Positions 1-5,484 of a stretch of 5,484 nucleotides of DNA are shown piece by piece. Position 1 is the first letter of the stretch, and each line of letters begins with the position of its first letter. Source of the stretch: Oscillospiraceae bacterium (lineage in GTDB: Bacteria > Bacillota > Clostridia > Oscillospirales > QAMX01); contig CACYBP010000141.1 of assembly GCA_902772625.1 (NCBI GenBank), forward strand, positions 1 to 5,484, written 5' to 3'. A program made the translations under genes and the position numbers. The notes beneath the pieces were generated by a model. It saw only the letters and a list, made by a program, of their open reading frames with translations. It was not told the DNA's origin and did no database searches.

Positions 1-1037
1 GCGGGGCTTTTTCCGAACCGGTCCTTCGGGCATCCGCCGTGACAGAACCGGAGATAGGAACAGGCCTTGCAGAAGGCGGTGAGAGAAGCGGACTTGGCCC
101 GGCCGAACTCCCTCTGAAAGCCGCTTTCGGCCATGCGGGAAAGTTTTCCCGCCCGGAGGTTCCCGAGCCGGTGAAGATCGTCCACGAAGTGATCGCAGGA
201 ATAGACGCCCCCGTCCTCCTCGGCGATCAGGACCCGGCCGCAGGTCTCGCGCATGGTGCAGAGCGACGCCTCCCCGCCCGCAAGGATCCGGGCGGTCTCG
301 GCGAAGAGCTGCACGTCGCATTTCCCGAGATCGCGGGTGACCCATTCGTCGAACACGGCGATGAGAAAATCGCCGTATCCCGCGGGCGTGACGGAGAGAG
401 GAGAAAGCGAGCCGTCTTCCCTCCGGATCACGATGGGGATGAACTGAATCCAGGAAGCCCCGGCGTCCCGGAGGGCGCGGTATACGCCCAGAGGATCCGA
501 AAGCGATTCGGCATTGACGGTGCAGAGAAGATCGGGATCGCCGCCGAAGCGCCGGAGGCGCGCGACCGAGGAAAGGACGCGCCGGTAAGTCGGCTCGCCC
601 GAGACGGTGCGGCGGTTTTTGTCGTGGACGAGCTCGCTCCCGTCGATGCTGATCCCCACGTCGAAACGGTTGTCCCGGAGGAAACGGCACCACTCGTCGT
701 TCAGAAGAAGACCGTTGGTCTGCAGATTGTTCCAGACCTCCCGCCCCTTCGGGATCAGCTTCTTTTCCAGCTCCACGACCTTTTTGTAGAAGCCGAGTCC
801 CGCCAGGGTCGGCTCCCCGCCGTGCCAGATGAAGGACACCGCCCCGGGGGAGGAGGCCGCGGCGTCCCGGATGAGCTTTTCCAGAAGGTCGGCGCTCATC
901 ACGGTCTGCCTTTCGTGGGAGGAGAATCTGCCCTTGCCCAGGTAATAGCAGTAGCGGCAGCGCATGTTGCAGCGCGAGCCCACCGGCTTTGCCATGATCA
1001 CGAGATTTTCTTTCGCGTTCGGGGCGCTTTTCTCCAC
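1..1037 (-). CDS. Anaerobic sulfatase-maturase family radical SAM/SPASM enzyme (3' end off the window)
   Basis: The visible part is 345 codons. Family role: anaerobic sulfatase-maturating enzymes (anSME) oxidise an active-site Cys or Ser of a sulfatase to formylglycine in the cytoplasm, using S-adenosylmethionine and three [4Fe-4S] clusters. Seen: the radical SAM motif Cx3Cx2C at C23, C27, C30 followed by YY; a WHGGEPTL segment near residues 71-78; SPASM cysteines C260-x5-C266-x14-C281, then C323-x2-C326-x5-C332-x3-C336. From memory this spacing equals that of the Clostridium perfringens enzyme, and D282 directly after C281 sits where that enzyme has its catalytic Asp. The GTG start is chosen because AAAGGAGG lies 8 nt upstream; the in-frame ATG at residue 15 lacks such a site. 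It lies 37 nt downstream of the hydrolase gene with no terminator between, so co-transcription is likely. No sulfatase is visible here. A peptide-modifying SPASM relative is possible but less likely given the full cysteine match. Confidence 0.9.
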   Translation of the reverse strand, partial: MEKSAPNAKENLVIMAKPVGSRCNMRCRYCYYLGKGRFSSHERQTVMSADLLEKLIRDAAASSPGAVSFIWHGGEPTLAGLGFYKKVVELEKKLIPKGREVWNNLQTNGLLLNDEWCRFLRDNRFDVGISIDGSELVHDKNRRTVSGEPTYRRVLSSVARLRRFGGDPDLLCTVNAESLSDPLGVYRALRDAGASWIQFIPIVIRREDGSLSPLSVTPAGYGDFLIAVFDEWVTRDLGKCDVQLFAETARILAGGEASLCTMRETCGRVLIAEEDGGVYSCDHFVDDLHRLGNLRAGKLSRMAESGFQREFGRAKSASLTAFCKACSYLRFCHGGCPKDRFGKSP

Positions 1038-1045
1038 GGCGGTCT

Positions 1046-1053
1046 CCTCCTTT
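1046..1053 (-). promoter_or_regulatory. Ribosome binding site that fixes the GTG start of the radical SAM gene
   Basis: The minus strand reads AAAGGAGG, then 8 nt, then GTG at 1037. This near-perfect Shine-Dalgarno site supports the GTG start over the later in-frame ATG. Confidence 0.85.
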
Positions 1054-1074
1054 CTCCGGGGATGATGAAGACGG

Positions 1075-1842
1075 TTATTTCAGATGCTTATCGAAGAAGG
1101 CGAGGACCTTGTTCCAGGAATCCATCGCCTGTTCGATCCGGTACATGGGCTTGTCGTAATACCAGAAGCCGTGGCCCGCCCCGTCGTAGCGGTGGAACTC
1201 GTAGTCCTTTCCGAGCTCCCGGAGCTTCTTTTCCAGGGTATCCACGTCCGCGCGGGTGGGGTTGCGGTCGTCGTTGCCGAAGATGCCGAGCAGCGGGCAG
1301 GAAAGCCCCGGGGCGTAATCGATGGGCGCCACCGGGCGCGCGGGAGTCAGGCTCTCGGGAGGAGCCACCACGCCGCCGCCCCAGCAATCCACCGCCGCGT
1401 CGATCCCCGGAAGGGTGGAGGCGGCCAGGAAGGTGTGCCGTCCGCCGGAGCACATGCCGATGCATCCGGCCTTGCCCGACGCGCCGGGCTGGTTTTTCAG
1501 GAAGGCGAGGGAGGCCGAAACGTCCTCCATCACGGTCTTGTCGGGGACGCCGCCGGCGTCGCGCATCCTCGCCGAGACCTCGGGCGGGGTGCCGTCGCCG
1601 TAGTCCTCGTAGATATTGGGGCAGAGGACGCTGTACCCGTGCAGGGCAAAGCGGTTCGCGGTCTCCCGGCACCACTCGTCCCATCCGGGCATATGGGGGA
1701 TCAGGACGATCCCGGGGGTGGGGCGGTCGGTCATGGGACGCGCCCACCAGGCCGCCACCGGCTTTCCCCCGTGACCGGGGATGCGCACGGTCTCGGCGAT
1801 CAGGCCCATCGGGTCCTTTACGCGGAATGAATTCCAGCTCAT
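1075..1842 (-). CDS. Dienelactone hydrolase family alpha/beta hydrolase
   Basis: A 255-residue cytoplasmic alpha/beta hydrolase, slightly longer than classical dienelactone hydrolase (about 236). Seen, numbering from ATG 1842: a Cys nucleophile elbow GMCSGG with C131; an acid in GNDDRNP (D192, or D191); and a His in GAGHGF (H224). This is the Cys-Asp-His triad of the family. The classical Glu that activates the Cys (E36 in the Pseudomonas enzyme) falls in the segment PHMPGWDEW (from residue 49), where the aligned position is His or Met, so it probably does not work as a true dienelactone hydrolase. No signal peptide is seen. The start is set at ATG 1842, not the in-frame TTG two codons upstream, because AAAGGAG sits 8 nt before the ATG and only 2 nt before the TTG. 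It is first in a likely two-gene operon with the radical SAM gene and has its own promoter. The substrate is unknown. Confidence 0.9.
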   Translation of the reverse strand: MSWNSFRVKDPMGLIAETVRIPGHGGKPVAAWWARPMTDRPTPGIVLIPHMPGWDEWCRETANRFALHGYSVLCPNIYEDYGDGTPPEVSARMRDAGGVPDKTVMEDVSASLAFLKNQPGASGKAGCIGMCSGGRHTFLAASTLPGIDAAVDCWGGGVVAPPESLTPARPVAPIDYAPGLSCPLLGIFGNDDRNPTRADVDTLEKKLRELGKDYEFHRYDGAGHGFWYYDKPMYRIEQAMDSWNKVLAFFDKHLK

Positions 1843-1850
1843 TAGCAAGA

Positions 1851-1857
1851 CTCCTTT
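1851..1857 (-). promoter_or_regulatory. Ribosome binding site that fixes the ATG start of the hydrolase
   Basis: AAAGGAG on the minus strand lies 8 nt before ATG 1842. The upstream in-frame TTG at 1848 would be only 2 nt from it, too close for initiation. Confidence 0.8.
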
Positions 1858-1882
1858 CGTACGGTGATGGTTTTCTTCTCTT

Positions 1883-1911
1883 ATTGTATCATAGATTCCG
1901 GACTTTGAAAA
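1883..1911 (-). promoter_or_regulatory. Sigma-A promoter of the hydrolase/radical SAM operon
   Basis: On the minus strand, -35 TTTTCA (1906-1911), a 17-nt spacer, and -10 TACAAT (1883-1888) preceded by TGA, an extended -10. The predicted transcription start near 1876 gives a leader of about 34 nt. It lies just downstream of the terminator of the preceding gene. Confidence 0.7.
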
Positions 1912-1920
1912 GGGAAAGGG

Positions 1921-1954
1921 AAAAGAAAAGCGCTCCCCCGGAAGAGGGGAGCGC
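1921..1954 (-). terminator. Intrinsic terminator of the zinc-ribbon membrane protein gene
   Basis: On the minus strand a 9-bp stem (GCGCTCCCC pairing with GGGGAGCGC, 1930-1938 and 1946-1954) with a 7-nt loop is followed by TTTTCTTTT. It begins about 10 nt after the stop codon and separates this gene from the hydrolase operon. Confidence 0.9.
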
Positions 1955-1963
1955 GCCGGAAGA

Positions 1964-2566
1964 TCAGTTGATGAAAAGCTGTTCCCGGTCCTGGAAGTAG
2001 CCGAAGTTATAAAAGGCGACCGCCGCGGAGAAGACGATGCGGAAGCCGATCGAAAGGTCCCCGGGAAAGGACTTCAAAACCAGGCTGTAAAGCAGGAGCC
2101 AGGCGAGATTCACCGCCGGGACCACGGCGTAATAGATCGAGACGAGGGCAGGGCCGTTTTTATAAAAGCCGGAAAGACGGAAGCGCGTGTAGACCGCGAA
2201 GACCGCGAGCGCGACGTGGATCGCGCCGAACAGCAGGTCGGCGAACCGGAGAGCGGGGAAAGAAGCCGCGACGGCCGGGGCCGCGCCTTCTCCGAAGAAA
2301 AGATCGTACTGAAGACCGGTGAATTCCAGAAGGCCCGAGAGAAGCGCGCTCAGGGCGCTGGCCCAGAGGGCGAACCAGATCAGAAAATGAAACCATTTCA
2401 GCTCCGGCTCCGGACTTCCGTCGTAAGCCCGGCTCAGGATCTCCGCAGGCGCGGGGGGAGAAGAAGAGGGCTTCGGAGGCTTGTCCGCGGGGCGCCAGCC
2501 GCAGCGGGGGCAGGAAAGGGCGTCTTCCTTCATGGTCTCAAGACATTTGGGACAAATCAATTCCAT
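1964..2566 (-). CDS. Zinc-ribbon membrane protein with about four transmembrane helices, unknown function
   Basis: 200 residues; I do not recognise a named family. Seen: an N-terminal zinc ribbon with two CPxC knuckles (C5, C8, C19, C22, the second followed by GW), of the kind found in many short Firmicute membrane proteins; a Pro/Ser/Ala-rich linker (about 28-43); then four hydrophobic segments at roughly 59-80, 107-128, 138-163 and 171-190. The C-terminus is short and polar. The zinc ribbon is expected on the cytoplasmic side, by inference from the absence of a signal peptide and a reducing environment for the Cys ligands. It is a single-gene unit with a perfect consensus promoter and its own terminator, so it is probably expressed constitutively. 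AAAGGAG stands only 3 nt before the ATG, a short spacing that might lower translation. Function cannot be inferred from its neighbours, which belong to other transcription units. Confidence 0.85.
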   Translation of the reverse strand: MELICPKCLETMKEDALSCPRCGWRPADKPPKPSSSPPAPAEILSRAYDGSPEPELKWFHFLIWFALWASALSALLSGLLEFTGLQYDLFFGEGAAPAVAASFPALRFADLLFGAIHVALAVFAVYTRFRLSGFYKNGPALVSIYYAVVPAVNLAWLLLYSLVLKSFPGDLSIGFRIVFSAAVAFYNFGYFQDREQLFIN

Positions 2567-2593
2567 CAGCTCCTTTCTGCTATGCTTAAGCCC

Positions 2594-2622
2594 ATTATAT
2601 CACCGGGCGGGGACCCTGTCAA
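2594..2622 (-). promoter_or_regulatory. Perfect consensus sigma-A promoter of the zinc-ribbon protein gene
   Basis: On the minus strand, -35 TTGACA (2617-2622), a 17-nt spacer, and -10 TATAAT (2594-2599), with TGA just before the -10. All twelve consensus bases match. The predicted start near 2587 gives a leader of about 20 nt before ATG 2566. Confidence 0.92.
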
Positions 2623-2640
2623 GGAAAAGAGGGAAGATGG

Positions 2641-2670
2641 AAAAAGCCCCGGAGGGGATCCCTCCGGGGC
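2641..2670 (-). terminator. Intrinsic terminator of the symporter-thioesterase operon
   Basis: On the minus strand an 11-bp perfect GC-rich stem (2646-2656 with 2660-2670) with a 3-nt loop is followed by TTTTT (2641-2645). It lies 13 nt after the thioesterase stop codon and just upstream of the next gene's promoter. Confidence 0.93.
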
Positions 2671-2683
2671 GGCTTGAAAGAAG

Positions 2684-3079
2684 CTATTTCGCGGTGTGGA
2701 AGCCGGTGCAGGCGATCTCCGCCACGGGGGTGGAAAGCTCGTCCCTGACCGAGATCTGATAATAGCAGGTGGTGCGGCCGTCCTTGACGCACCGGGCCTC
2801 GGCGGTGAGGCGCGCGCCCTTCGGCGCGCTGAGATAAGCGACGTTCGAGGAAATGGCCACCGTGCCGGGCTTTTCCCAGTTGGAGGCCACGGCGAAGGCC
2901 AGATCGGCCAGGGTGAAGATCGCCCCTCCCATCACGCCGCCCAGGGCGTTTTTGTGCAGATCGGAGAGGGTGAGGGAGCATTTGGCGTACCGGGGGCCGA
3001 TCTCGTCGACCCCGCACCCGGCGGAAGAGGCGAAGCGGTCGTTTTGAAAGTACGCGCGGACTTCTTCAAGAGACTGCAT
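2684..3079 (-). CDS. PaaI-type hotdog-fold thioesterase
   Basis: 131 residues, the usual size of a single hotdog domain. The family hydrolyses acyl-CoA thioesters; PaaI itself acts on phenylacetyl-CoA derivatives. Seen: the segment H42-K-N44 followed by GGVMGGAIFTLADLAFA (about 47-63), matching the HxN...G..HGG...LaD.a pattern with D59 as the likely catalytic acid. The His normally found before GG is Met50 here, a variation whose effect is uncertain. The second half (about 76-127) is the beta-rich remainder of the fold. The protein is probably cytoplasmic and a homo-oligomer (family knowledge). The start ATG has GAGGAGG 7 nt upstream. The gene begins 12 nt after the symporter stop codon and is followed by a strong terminator, so it is the second gene of the T-box-controlled operon. 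The substrate is unknown; a link to the transported compound is only inference. Confidence 0.9.
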   Translation of the reverse strand: MQSLEEVRAYFQNDRFASSAGCGVDEIGPRYAKCSLTLSDLHKNALGGVMGGAIFTLADLAFAVASNWEKPGTVAISSNVAYLSAPKGARLTAEARCVKDGRTTCYYQISVRDELSTPVAEIACTGFHTAK

Positions 3080-3091
3080 GCCCGTACCTCC

Positions 3092-4657
3092 TCATTCTTC
3101 CTCTCCGGCGCCGATGGAATCGGTGACCGCCACCGTGACCTTCCGGTCGTAGCAGGAGAAGATGGAGGCGACCTTTTCTTTGGCGGGGGCTCTGGAAAGA
3201 AGGCTTACCAAGGGCACGATGATGAATCCGGCCAGCATGCAGAAGGCGCCGGCGTTGATGGGGGATTGCAGGAGCTGGGGGAAGTAGGGCCGGAAGAAGA
3301 TGTTCAGAAGCATCACGACCGTGGAGAAAAGGAAGTTCACCGCGCAGGAAAGCTTGGTGGTCCTCTTCCAGTAGAGGCCGAAGAGGAAGGGAGCCAGGAA
3401 GGCCCCGGCCAGCGCGCCCCAGGAAACGCCCATCAGCTGCGCGATGAAGGTGACGTTGGCCCGGTACTGCAGGATGGCGATCACCGCCGAGATCGCGATG
3501 AACACCGCGATCAGAAGGCGCATGGTGAAAAGCTGGCCCTTTTCGCTCATGTTCTTTTTCAGGCTGCCCTTGATGAAATCCAGGGTCAGGGTGGAGCTGG
3601 AGGTCAGGACCAGCGAGGATAGGGTGGACATGGAGGCCGACAGCACCAGGATCACCACCAGGGCGATCAGAATCGCCGGAAGCCCCGAAAGCATGGCCGG
3701 GATCACCGCGTCGAAGCCATCCTTCGCCACGTCGACCTTGTCGGAGAAAAGCCGGCCGAACCCGCCGAGGAAGTAGCAGCCGCCCGCCACCACCGTGGCG
3801 AACACGGTGGAGATGACCATGCCCTTGTTGATGGCCTTCTCGCTCTTGATGGCGTAGAACTTCTGCACCATCTGGGGAAGTCCCCAGGTGCCCAGCGACG
3901 TCAGGATCATCACGCCCAGAAGGTTCAGGGGATCGGGCCCGAAGAAGGAGGCGAACACGCCGGGGGAAGAGGACACCGTCTCGTCGGTGACGCGGGACAG
4001 GGCGTCCAGAGCCGGAAGGAACCCGCCCTGGCTTTTCAGCACCGCGGCCACCACGGCGACGATGCCGAAGAGCATGATGATGCCCTGAATGAAATCGTTC
4101 ATGGCGGTGGCCATGTATCCGCCGGCGATGACGTATACGCCGGTGAGCACCGCCATCACGATGACGCAGATCGAGTAATCGATGTTGAAGGCCATGCCGA
4201 AAAGGCGGCTCAGGCCGTTGTAGAGCGAGGCAGTGTAGGGGATCAGGAAGATGAAGATCACCGCCGAGGAGAAAAGCTTCAGCCCCGGACTTTCAAACCG
4301 CGCGTCGAAAAACTGCGGCATGGTGGCGGAGTTCAGATGCTGGGTCATGATGCGGGTGCGGCGGCCCAGGACCGCCCACGCCAGAAGCGAGCCGAGGAAC
4401 GCGTTGGCGATGCCCGCCCAGGTGGCGGCGATGCCGTATTTCCATCCGAACTGTCCCGCGTATCCCACGAAGACCACCGCAGAGAAGTAGGAGGTGCCGT
4501 AGGCGAAGGCTGTCAGCCAGGGACCCACGTTCCGTCCGCCCAGCACGAAGCCCGACACGTCGGTGGAGTGCTTCCGGCAGTAAAGACCGACGCCCACCAT
4601 GACGCCGAAGAAGATCACCAGAAGCACGATCTTCACGATCAGATCAAAAATTTCCAT
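3092..4657 (-). CDS. Sodium:solute symporter (SSS family), probably for an amino acid or related compound
   Basis: 521 residues, about the length of PutP, with about 13 hydrophobic helices (the first about 8-27, the last about 466-488). Family role: uptake of a solute across the cytoplasmic membrane driven by sodium. Seen: LGGRNVGPWLTAFAYG (39-54), the SSS entry motif; GGYMATAMNDFIQG (179-192), the family signature region; WGLPQMVQKFYAI (258-270), also typical; MSTLSS (343-348), where S344-T345 match by eye the sodium-binding S340-T341 of PutP. PutP Asp55, needed for sodium and proline transport, aligns with Tyr57 (GTSYFS), which resembles the pantothenate-type branch more, so I do not call it a proline transporter. 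The C-terminal tail (about 489-521) is polar. The upstream site AAAGGATGAG is weak. It is first in an operon with the thioesterase, and the T-box leader upstream suggests induction when a specific amino acid is short. The exact substrate is unresolved. Confidence 0.93.
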   Translation of the reverse strand: MEIFDLIVKIVLLVIFFGVMVGVGLYCRKHSTDVSGFVLGGRNVGPWLTAFAYGTSYFSAVVFVGYAGQFGWKYGIAATWAGIANAFLGSLLAWAVLGRRTRIMTQHLNSATMPQFFDARFESPGLKLFSSAVIFIFLIPYTASLYNGLSRLFGMAFNIDYSICVIVMAVLTGVYVIAGGYMATAMNDFIQGIIMLFGIVAVVAAVLKSQGGFLPALDALSRVTDETVSSSPGVFASFFGPDPLNLLGVMILTSLGTWGLPQMVQKFYAIKSEKAINKGMVISTVFATVVAGGCYFLGGFGRLFSDKVDVAKDGFDAVIPAMLSGLPAILIALVVILVLSASMSTLSSLVLTSSSTLTLDFIKGSLKKNMSEKGQLFTMRLLIAVFIAISAVIAILQYRANVTFIAQLMGVSWGALAGAFLAPFLFGLYWKRTTKLSCAVNFLFSTVVMLLNIFFRPYFPQLLQSPINAGAFCMLAGFIIVPLVSLLSRAPAKEKVASIFSCYDRKVTVAVTDSIGAGEEE

Positions 4658-4725
4658 GTTTTTCTCATCCTTTCCACGGATCCGGAATAGGTGCAGGCGC
4701 CAAGGGCTTTTCCGGCTTTCCGGCC

Positions 4726-4765
4726 AAAAAAGAGCCCCCGCGTTCCCGCACGGGGAACACAGAGG
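4726..4765 (-). terminator. Regulated intrinsic terminator of the T-box leader
   Basis: On the minus strand a 13-bp stem (5' arm 4753-4765, 3' arm 4735-4747) with three GU pairs and a 5-nt loop is followed by CTC and TTTTTT (4726-4731). Its 5' arm uses the CCTCT that also closes the antiterminator. The symporter start codon is about 70 nt further on. Confidence 0.9.
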
Positions 4766-4793
4766 GCGAAATCACTTCCGCGGTACCACCTCT
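4761..4793 (-). promoter_or_regulatory. T-box antiterminator
   Basis: Canonical layout: A1 helix AGAGG (4789-4793) with CCTCT (4761-4765); the 7-nt bulge TGGTACC (4782-4788), whose UGGU pairs with the tRNA 3' end NCCA; A2 helix GCGGAA (4776-4781) with TTTCGC (4766-4771), including one GU pair; loop GTGA (4772-4775). It shares 4761-4765 with the terminator, so the two structures exclude each other. Confidence 0.93.
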
Positions 4794-4997
4794 ATTCGCC
4801 GCCTTCTCGCGAAGCGCGGCCTTCCCGGGATACGAAGCCATATCCCTTCCGCGGTAACGGGCGGACCCGGCTTTCCTACCGGCGGGCCGGAGCCCGCGTT
4901 CGGATCGCTGCTCGGAAGGGTAATTCGGACGCTGCTTTCCGCCGCCTCGCACCGCCGGCGGCTCTCTGGGGGAAAGGTCTCAGGGCCCTACTCGATC

Positions 4998-5018
4998 TTC
5001 GTCATCGCATGTGACGAA
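4998..5018. repeat. Inverted repeat over the predicted T-box transcription start
   Basis: Perfect 7-bp arms TTCGTCA (4998-5004) and TGACGAA (5012-5018) surround a 7-nt centre. It covers the predicted transcription start and the 5' strand of the stem I K-turn. It could be a protein operator, or chance arising from conserved T-box bases. Confidence 0.4.
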
Positions 5019-5021
5019 TAT

Positions 5022-5050
5022 ACTTTACCACGCCAACGCGATAAAGTCAA
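5022..5050 (-). promoter_or_regulatory. Promoter of the T-box leader and symporter-thioesterase operon
   Basis: On the minus strand, -35 TTGACT (5045-5050), a 17-nt spacer, and -10 TAAAGT (5022-5027) preceded by TGG, giving an extended -10. The start is predicted near 5015, immediately before stem I of the T-box. A- and T-tracts upstream of the -35 (5054-5068) could act as an UP element. Confidence 0.8.
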
Positions 5051-5053
5051 GAG

Positions 5054-5068
5054 CTTTTTTGAAAAAAG
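5054..5068. repeat. A/T-tract palindrome between the divergent promoters
   Basis: CTTTTTT and AAAAAAG arms flank a single G, ending 4 nt upstream of the -35 of the T-box promoter. Such tracts often bend DNA or act as an UP element for the RNA polymerase alpha subunit. A short bidirectional terminator is unlikely because the stem is only A-T rich and no gene ends here. Confidence 0.4.
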
Positions 5069-5154
5069 TTTCAGAATTTTTCGCCTTGCCGGGAATGGCG
5101 GGGAAAGGGAGCGCTTTTCCGCCTCCGGGATCAGGGCAAAAGAGAGAAAGAAAC

Positions 5155-5184
5155 TTGACGAAAACTCGTAAATGGAAGTATAAT
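5155..5184 (+). promoter_or_regulatory. Sigma-A promoter of the secreted Ig-like protein gene
   Basis: -35 TTGACG (5155-5160), an 18-nt spacer, and a perfect -10 TATAAT (5179-5184). The predicted start near 5191 gives a leader of about 45 nt. It is divergent from the T-box promoter, with about 105 nt between the two -35 boxes. Confidence 0.85.
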
Positions 5185-5202
5185 AAACGCGTCTCAAAAA
5201 CA

Positions 5203-5218
5203 TGCGATTTACATCGCA
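5203..5218 (+). repeat. Inverted repeat in the 5' untranslated region of the secreted protein gene
   Basis: TGCGAT-TTAC-ATCGCA is a perfect 6-bp stem with a 4-nt loop, about 12 nt after the predicted transcription start and about 18 nt before the ATG. It could be an operator or an mRNA 5'-end hairpin. It is too weak and lacks the U-run of a terminator. Confidence 0.5.
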
Positions 5219-5236
5219 GAAAAGAGGGTATGAGTC

Positions 5237-5484
5237 ATGAAAAAAGCGGCGGTAAAGTTATTGGCTTTCCTCTGTCTTGCGTTGATCCTGACTTCGGTTT
5301 TCTCAATAGGAGCCAGTGCTTCAGACGGAGCTGCTCCAGCGATCACGGTTCAGCCGAAGGCGGCGACCGTTGCCGCAGGAGCAAGCGCCACTTTTAAGGT
5401 TACGGCAGAGGGAACCGGACTTTCCTATCAATGGCAGTACAGCACAGATAATGGGTCGACCTGGAAAACGTGGAGCGGGAAGAC
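5237..5484 (+). CDS. Secreted protein with bacterial Ig-like domain (3' end off the window)
   Basis: Only the first 82 codons are present. Seen: a classical signal peptide with a basic start (MKKAAVK), a hydrophobic core (about 8-24) and an AxA site (A26-S27-A28) with cleavage predicted before S29; no lipobox, so not a lipoprotein. The mature start is a short Ala-rich stretch followed by an Ig-like strand pattern, ITVQPKAATVAAGASATF (36-53), then LSYQWQYSTDNGSTW (62-76). In clostridial surface proteins this kind of module is commonly found in tandem in large cell-wall or adhesin-like proteins (family knowledge). The enzymatic or binding role must lie beyond the window and cannot be given. The ATG at 5237 is chosen over an overlapping ATG at 5230 in another frame, because only this frame gives the signal peptide; AGAGGG lies about 8 nt upstream. 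The first codons are visibly more A/T-rich than the minus-strand genes. Confidence 0.85.
   Translation, partial: MKKAAVKLLAFLCLALILTSVFSIGASASDGAAPAITVQPKAATVAAGASATFKVTAEGTGLSYQWQYSTDNGSTWKTWSGK

Follow-up and report, generated by a model that had tools for sequence, protein, structure and literature searches.

A tyrosine T-box leader upstream of an SSS-family symporter gene in an Oscillospiraceae bacterium and its likely link to arylacetate import

The minus-strand region upstream of an SSS-family symporter gene of an Oscillospiraceae bacterium is a T-box leader RNA. It carries the tyrosine specifier UAC, and the symporter encoded behind it is likely an importer of an arylacetate, either 4-hydroxyphenylacetate or phenylacetate, which would be converted to tyrosine; the cargo is probably not tyrosine itself. 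The analysed DNA, in the following referred to as the window, comprises 5,484 nt (assembly GCA_902772625.1, contig CACYBP010000141.1, positions 1-5,484). On a wider scale, we lean towards a T-box-governed arylacetate salvage regulon in gut Clostridia, in which shortage, sensed by tRNA-Tyr and tRNA-Phe, would induce an SSS symporter for arylacetates together with an arylacetate-CoA ligase, PaaK and IorAB, and the two arylacetates 4-hydroxyphenylacetate and phenylacetate would serve to rebuild tyrosine and phenylalanine. The window would represent the transporter branch under tRNA-Tyr, importing a precursor rather than the sensed amino acid. The RNA itself is an ordinary tyrosine T-box and the novelty lies in the circuit, for which we infer the cargo, the direction of IorAB and the response to starvation.

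The leader RNA and its specifier codon

In a scan evaluated by E-value, the Rfam covariance model RF00230 matched positions 4759-5014 of the minus strand over its complete length (model positions 1-219) with 89.0 bits and an E-value of 6.6e-20. The default Rfam scan gave no match in the window, since 89 bits falls slightly short of the gathering score of 93. A reading of the sequence alone had proposed a T-box riboswitch at 4726-5015 and a covariance-model search as a check; the search was run, and the match to the whole model bears out the proposal, although the score lies under the gathering score. The proposed coordinates are correct.

The elements of the leader were located on the minus strand. 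A putative promoter-like site, TTGACT-17-TAAAGT, was found by a consensus scan at 5022-5050 (9/12 matches). Based on the RF00230 alignment and the sequence, Stem I (4915-5000) rises above a lower helix of GAAG (5000-4997) and CUUC (4918-4915), and AGUA (4992-4989) faces GAA (4926-4924) within it. The antiterminator (4761-4793) is formed by AGAGG (4793-4789) with CCUCU (4765-4761) and by a second helix of 4781-4776 with 4771-4766. Across 28 aligned leaders, standard pairs occupy 121 of 140 cells of the AGAGG/CCUCU helix and 155 of 159 cells of the second one. The T-box bulge UGGU (4785-4788) is complementary to the ACCA end of tRNA-Tyr. An intrinsic terminator (4726-4765), consisting of a 13-pair stem (4765-4735) and a U-rich tail, showed a folding energy of -25.8 kcal/mol (z -4.8), which was equalled by none of 200 shuffled sequences, and its T-run reaches position 4726. 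Since CCUCU (4765-4761) is common to antiterminator and terminator, the two structures are mutually exclusive. An inverted repeat, TTCGTCA..TGACGAA (4998-5018), spans the 5' end of the leader, and the minimum-energy fold prefers this repeat over the base of Stem I.

Compared to shuffled sequences, the folding energy of the whole leader was not distinct (z -1.55, 13 of 200 shuffles equally good), and the same holds true for the antiterminator (z -0.87) and Stem I (z 0.35) taken alone. The case for the leader therefore rests on the covariance model and on the comparison with related leaders.

The specifier loop reads GAA-U-UAC-C (4926-4919) and is followed by the lower-helix strand CUUC. The specifier, defined as the triplet that lies 5' of the lower helix with a single base in between, is UAC at 4920-4922 (minus strand). 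This reading rule gave the correct amino acid in all seven comparable control leaders (tyrS, metG, proS, valS twice, trpB and pheS), of which one valS and the pheS leader belong to the window's own genome. These are the controls, out of nine proteins searched, for which a codon was read and a product was named; L145 (no family at an E-value of 1e-60) and L005 (no reading) were left out. Altogether, the specifier script yielded no reading for ten leaders (L005, L140, L141, L142, L144, L146, L149, L150, L159 and L165).

In the leader alignment, the triplet aligned to the window's UAC was UAC in all eight leaders of close SSS genes (the window, L007, L008, L009, L011, L012, L016 and L107), and neither AUU nor UUA was kept in any of them. 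The sequence-only reading had named tyrosine and had left isoleucine and leucine as alternatives, to be decided by aligning the leaders of orthologous symporters. That alignment settles on UAC and, together with the control leaders, removes the Ile, Leu and Thr frames.

A different frame is also very improbable on wider grounds. The loop GAAUUACC does contain AUU (Ile), UUA (Leu) and, one base downstream, ACC (Thr). The extra U that the window and L007 have between GAA and the specifier is an unusual feature within the set of 28 aligned leaders, and the script placed ACA above UAC in six leaders (L008, L009, L011, L012, L016 and L107) and listed ACA without UAC for L018. Against this stands the constant UAC at the aligned place. 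Furthermore, UAC as the frame is backed by the tyrS control (L163), whose loop is arranged as GAA-UAC-A, and a frame shifted downstream would turn the leaders of IorA and PaaK into serine leaders. According to the accessible text of the TBDB article (PMC7778990), bases 2-4 from the bulge end are preferred, and AUU and UUA each account for a frequency of only 0.01 among the Ile and Leu specifiers, respectively.

The host's tRNA is in agreement with this reading. The window's genome encodes tRNA-Tyr(GUA) with the 3' end A-CCA (A73); UAC fits its anticodon, and the variable base of UGGN, here U, fits base 73. The earlier argument that the UGGU bulge needs A73 and thereby suits tRNA-Tyr thus agrees with the host's own tRNA. 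A reservation about the C that follows UAC was answered by the nine leaders of LIG1-SSS operons described below, all of which read UAC-C or UUC-C. Compared to tyrS leaders, the window shares the AGUA/GAA motif of Stem I, UAC, UGGU, antiterminator and terminator, and differs by one additional base between GAA and the specifier.

The symporter gene, its neighbours and its relatives

As the sequence-only reading had recognised, the gene behind the leader (3092-4657, minus strand) encodes an SSS-family symporter of 521 aa. The SSF domain (PF00474, 189 bits, residues 37-435) covers most of the protein, as in PutP, PanF, ActP and SGLT. In contrast to these, the protein reaches no NCBIfam equivalog cut-off (best match PutP, 190.9 versus a cut-off of 515.5), and family membership gives no substrate. 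A search of solved structures returned distant SSS entries only (SGLT1, two sodium/glucose cotransporter sets and 5nv9), without a hint at the substrate.

A PaaI-like hotdog thioesterase gene (2684-3079, minus strand) begins 12 nt downstream of the symporter gene and is probably co-transcribed with it. Its product scored 74 bits with TIGR02286, under the cut-off of 118.9, and passed the cut-off of TIGR00369 with 49 bits. It is 44% identical to the PaaI of loci with the arrangement LIG1-SSS-IorAB. At the two ends of the window, further features were observed. On the plus strand (5155-5482), a strong promoter-like site, TTGACG-18-TATAAT (11/12), lies divergent from the T-box, and an open reading frame with a signal-peptide-like start runs from 5237 off the contig (best NCBIfam match NF053514, under its cut-off). 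On the minus strand (3-1037), a gene for an anaerobic sulfatase maturase (TIGR03942, 379 bits, cut-off passed) is truncated by the contig end.

For the comparison of gene neighbourhoods, the best 80 of the SSS matches listed were used, which are 70 to 82% identical. Among these loci, the CoA ligase LIG1 was present in 33, directly upstream on the same strand in 28 of them. IorA was present in 22 (downstream on the same strand in 21), IorB in 24, a PaaI-like gene in 9 and PaaK in 8. Within the stretch of sequence examined, no LIG1 was seen in 47 and no IorA in 58 of the 80 best-listed loci. LIG1 is an AMP-binding enzyme, and in none of the 25 NCBIfam families listed for it was the cut-off reached. 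The NCBIfam cut-offs for IorA and IorB are passed, and with the LIG1, PaaK and PaaI models the scores lie under the equivalog cut-offs.

In a quickly built tree of the SSS proteins, with SH-aLRT as its only support measure, the window's symporter nests in a clade of 27 rows (SH-aLRT 98). Outside the window's family this clade comprises 25 loci, with LIG1 upstream in 21 and IorA in 18; the remaining 4 are without LIG1. Outside the clade, LIG1 occurs in 12 of the other 55 relative loci. The window's own locus has neither LIG1 nor IorAB adjoining the symporter gene. Long end branches were flagged for L018, L017, L013, L015, L011 and L107, L016 (233 aa) was left out of the tree, and L017 and L018 (43.7% and 39.4% identical) lie far from the remaining SSS rows. 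Other SSS branches carry an amidohydrolase-like gene behind the symporter gene, in the same orientation (L052, L068, L072, L074, L081, L083, L097, L098, L111, L112, L113 and L114); a representative of these proteins matched no NCBIfam family at 1e-5.

The window's draft genome (G000, 86% complete) encodes a LIG1 CoA ligase (contig C190), a PaaK-like ligase (C262, not reaching the cut-off of TIGR02155) and IorAB (C136), as well as PheA (C174) and part of TyrA (C359). LIG1, PaaK and IorA are located on contigs other than the window's. Among 21 genomes of the family, all 13 with the symporter also match IorA and PaaK. In G005, G006 and G007, the symporter, LIG1, PaaK and a strong IorA are all absent (limits 1e-60 for SSS, 1e-120 for LIG1 and 1e-80 for PaaK), the IorA matches there scoring 67 to 69 bits compared to 400 or more elsewhere. 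By Fisher's test, with relatedness ignored, the co-occurrence of SSS and LIG1 over the 21 genomes was not significant (11/13 versus 5/8, p 0.33), and that of SSS and IorA was significant only weakly (p 0.012).

T-boxes on symporter, ligase and IorAB genes

T-boxes at the best 80 listed loci were searched with a 13-base motif allowing at most one mismatch, and ten loci counted in this way were then confirmed by RF00230. The motif search found no T-box at the other 70, and ten is a lower bound, since these 70 were judged by the motif and not by the covariance model. RF00230 did not bear out the further one-mismatch matches in L042, L064 and L107. In nine of the ten loci the T-box precedes LIG1-SSS, with a Tyr specifier in six and a Phe specifier in three. 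Three of these nine (L044, L064 and L091) carry a second T-box before IorAB, which reads Phe in all three. In the tenth locus (L107), a Tyr T-box lies directly upstream of the symporter gene.

Within the family, the leader of the same-genus homologue L007 scored 104.5 bits with RF00230, and six more leaders upstream of SSS genes, including that of the distant SSS L018, scored 87.3 to 115.9 bits. LIG1 has its own Tyr (UAC) T-box in five family genomes (G002, G003, G010, G011 and G012), in four of which (all except G011) SSS and LIG1 are each under a Tyr T-box. PaaK has a Phe (UUC) T-box in two (G001 and G009). Taken over 27 aligned leaders before SSS, LIG1, IorAB or PaaK, which were picked by the downstream gene and not by the codon, the specifier was UAC in 19 and UUC in 8, and nothing else occurred. 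The Tyr T-box of L018 was excluded from this count. At this locus (G020:C116), the T-box with GAA-UAC-A lies directly upstream of an SSS gene whose product is 39% identical to the window's.

None of the five T-boxes found in the window's genome lies on LIG1, PaaK or IorA, and none was found at the 15 IorA loci of the family. Where the symporter gene adjoins IorAB within the family (G004, G009 and G013, all outside the window's clade), it has no T-box. The missing T-boxes at L010 and L194 (LIG1 of G001) are uninformative, because only 199 and about 140 bases lie upstream.

G015 (98% complete) encodes a symporter 93% identical to the window's, under a Tyr T-box, together with LIG1, PaaK and IorA. 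No match to PF02153 or PF00800 was found in this genome, in which chorismate synthase is present. Such a strain would depend on uptake or salvage for tyrosine and phenylalanine. In the same genome (L229, contig C98), a T-box at 8204-8457 (minus strand), read by eye as UGG (Trp), lies upstream of aroC, the shikimate kinase gene and aroA in the same orientation. T-boxes were also seen before other kinds of genes, judged by eye: Val-type (GUA) ones with 117.8 to 121.9 bits before open reading frames resembling GNAT acetyltransferases (L143, L160 and L161), and CUC (Leu) ones before open reading frames resembling sugar isomerase/epimerase proteins (L152 and L168, in G016 and G014).

Cargo of the symporter and the proposed circuit

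T-boxes switch genes on when the cognate tRNA is uncharged. Since the leader carries a tyrosine codon, the symporter gene is predicted to be on when tyrosine is scarce. Deducing the substrate from the specifier calls for caution, because what the codon identifies is the amino acid that is scarce. The suggestion of the sequence-only reading that the leader may reveal the substrate therefore holds in part: the Tyr specifier does name the scarce amino acid, but the gene context in relatives suggests an aromatic-acid precursor as the cargo. Given that T-boxes turn genes on in starvation, the Tyr and Phe T-boxes on the ligases and IorAB most likely serve the making of tyrosine and phenylalanine. 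This points to arylacetate salvage by import, CoA ligation, reductive carboxylation and transamination, with the SSS protein as the likely importer, and an arylacetate would be the simplest cargo for a symporter in such an operon.

In the proposed circuit, uncharged tRNA-Tyr would pair with UAC via its GUA anticodon and with UGGU via its ACCA end. The antiterminator would then win over the terminator, transcription would pass, and the symporter would be produced, probably together with the PaaI-like thioesterase. After import, LIG1 or PaaK would link the acid to CoA, and the aryl-CoA would be carboxylated reductively by IorAB to the arylpyruvate, which would finally be transaminated. From the T-box codons, LIG1 is predicted to act on 4-hydroxyphenylacetate and PaaK on phenylacetate.

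The main rival explanation is direct import of L-tyrosine, or of aromatic amino acids, by the symporter, the usual arrangement for T-box transporters; we consider this possible but rather unlikely. Inferring the substrate of a transporter from its T-box specifier is established practice according to the text available from PMC2494555 and PMC7778990, and the former generally assigns to T-box transporters the amino acid that is sensed and lists Tyr T-boxes on NhaC- and NSS-family transporters. The absence of LIG1 and IorAB next to the window's gene and of LIG1 from 4 of the 25 clade loci would fit this as well. It leaves unexplained, however, why the symporter shares operons with the CoA ligase (21/25) and IorAB (18/25) in the clade, and why LIG1 has a Tyr T-box of its own in five family genomes. 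The same gene set could also serve the breakdown of aromatic amino acids, with IorAB working oxidatively, energy gained from aryl-CoA and the symporter importing amino acids or exporting acids. Ior has been characterised in archaeal peptide fermentation, as stated in the accessible part of PMC6737245, and a thioesterase would set the free acid loose. Since T-boxes activate on uncharged tRNA, those on the ligases and IorAB would launch degradation in the very moment of shortage, and breakdown is accordingly improbable.

The preferred reading, arylacetate import for biosynthesis, has counterparts in other organisms. The accessible parts of the respective papers describe the formation of aromatic amino acids via phenylacetyl-CoA ligase and Ior in methanogens (PMC6737245) and phenylalanine made from phenylacetate in rumen cultures (PMC7356843). 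A CoA ligase adjoining IorAB and a proposed biosynthetic direction are common to these systems and the loci described here. Different from the methanogen route, the present loci belong to Lachnospiraceae- and Oscillospiraceae-type genomes, include an SSS transporter gene within the operon and in some cases carry Tyr or Phe T-boxes. Compared to known Tyr T-boxes on transporters (NhaC, NSS), the window's target is an SSS-family gene. In the accessible text of PMC2494555, seven T-box transporter families are listed without SSS, along with an unspecified 'sodium symporter (4x)', and SSS was not seen as a target in the portion available of a review on C. difficile riboswitches (PMC11477304). In the literature searched, which did not extend to two older T-box surveys, neither T-box control shared by ligase, symporter and IorAB nor a T-box with indolepyruvate ferredoxin oxidoreductase or phenylacetate-CoA ligase was found.

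The circuit would make the conversion of aryl acids to aromatic amino acids accessible to genetic study, a conversion known from rumen cultures and methanogens as far as the available text of the two sources goes (PMC7356843, PMC6737245). At the same time, an unassigned SSS subfamily gains a testable substrate. Since phenylacetate and 4-hydroxyphenylacetate commonly occur as metabolites in the gut, import switched on by starvation would tie the amino acid supply of these bacteria to the levels of both arylacetates.
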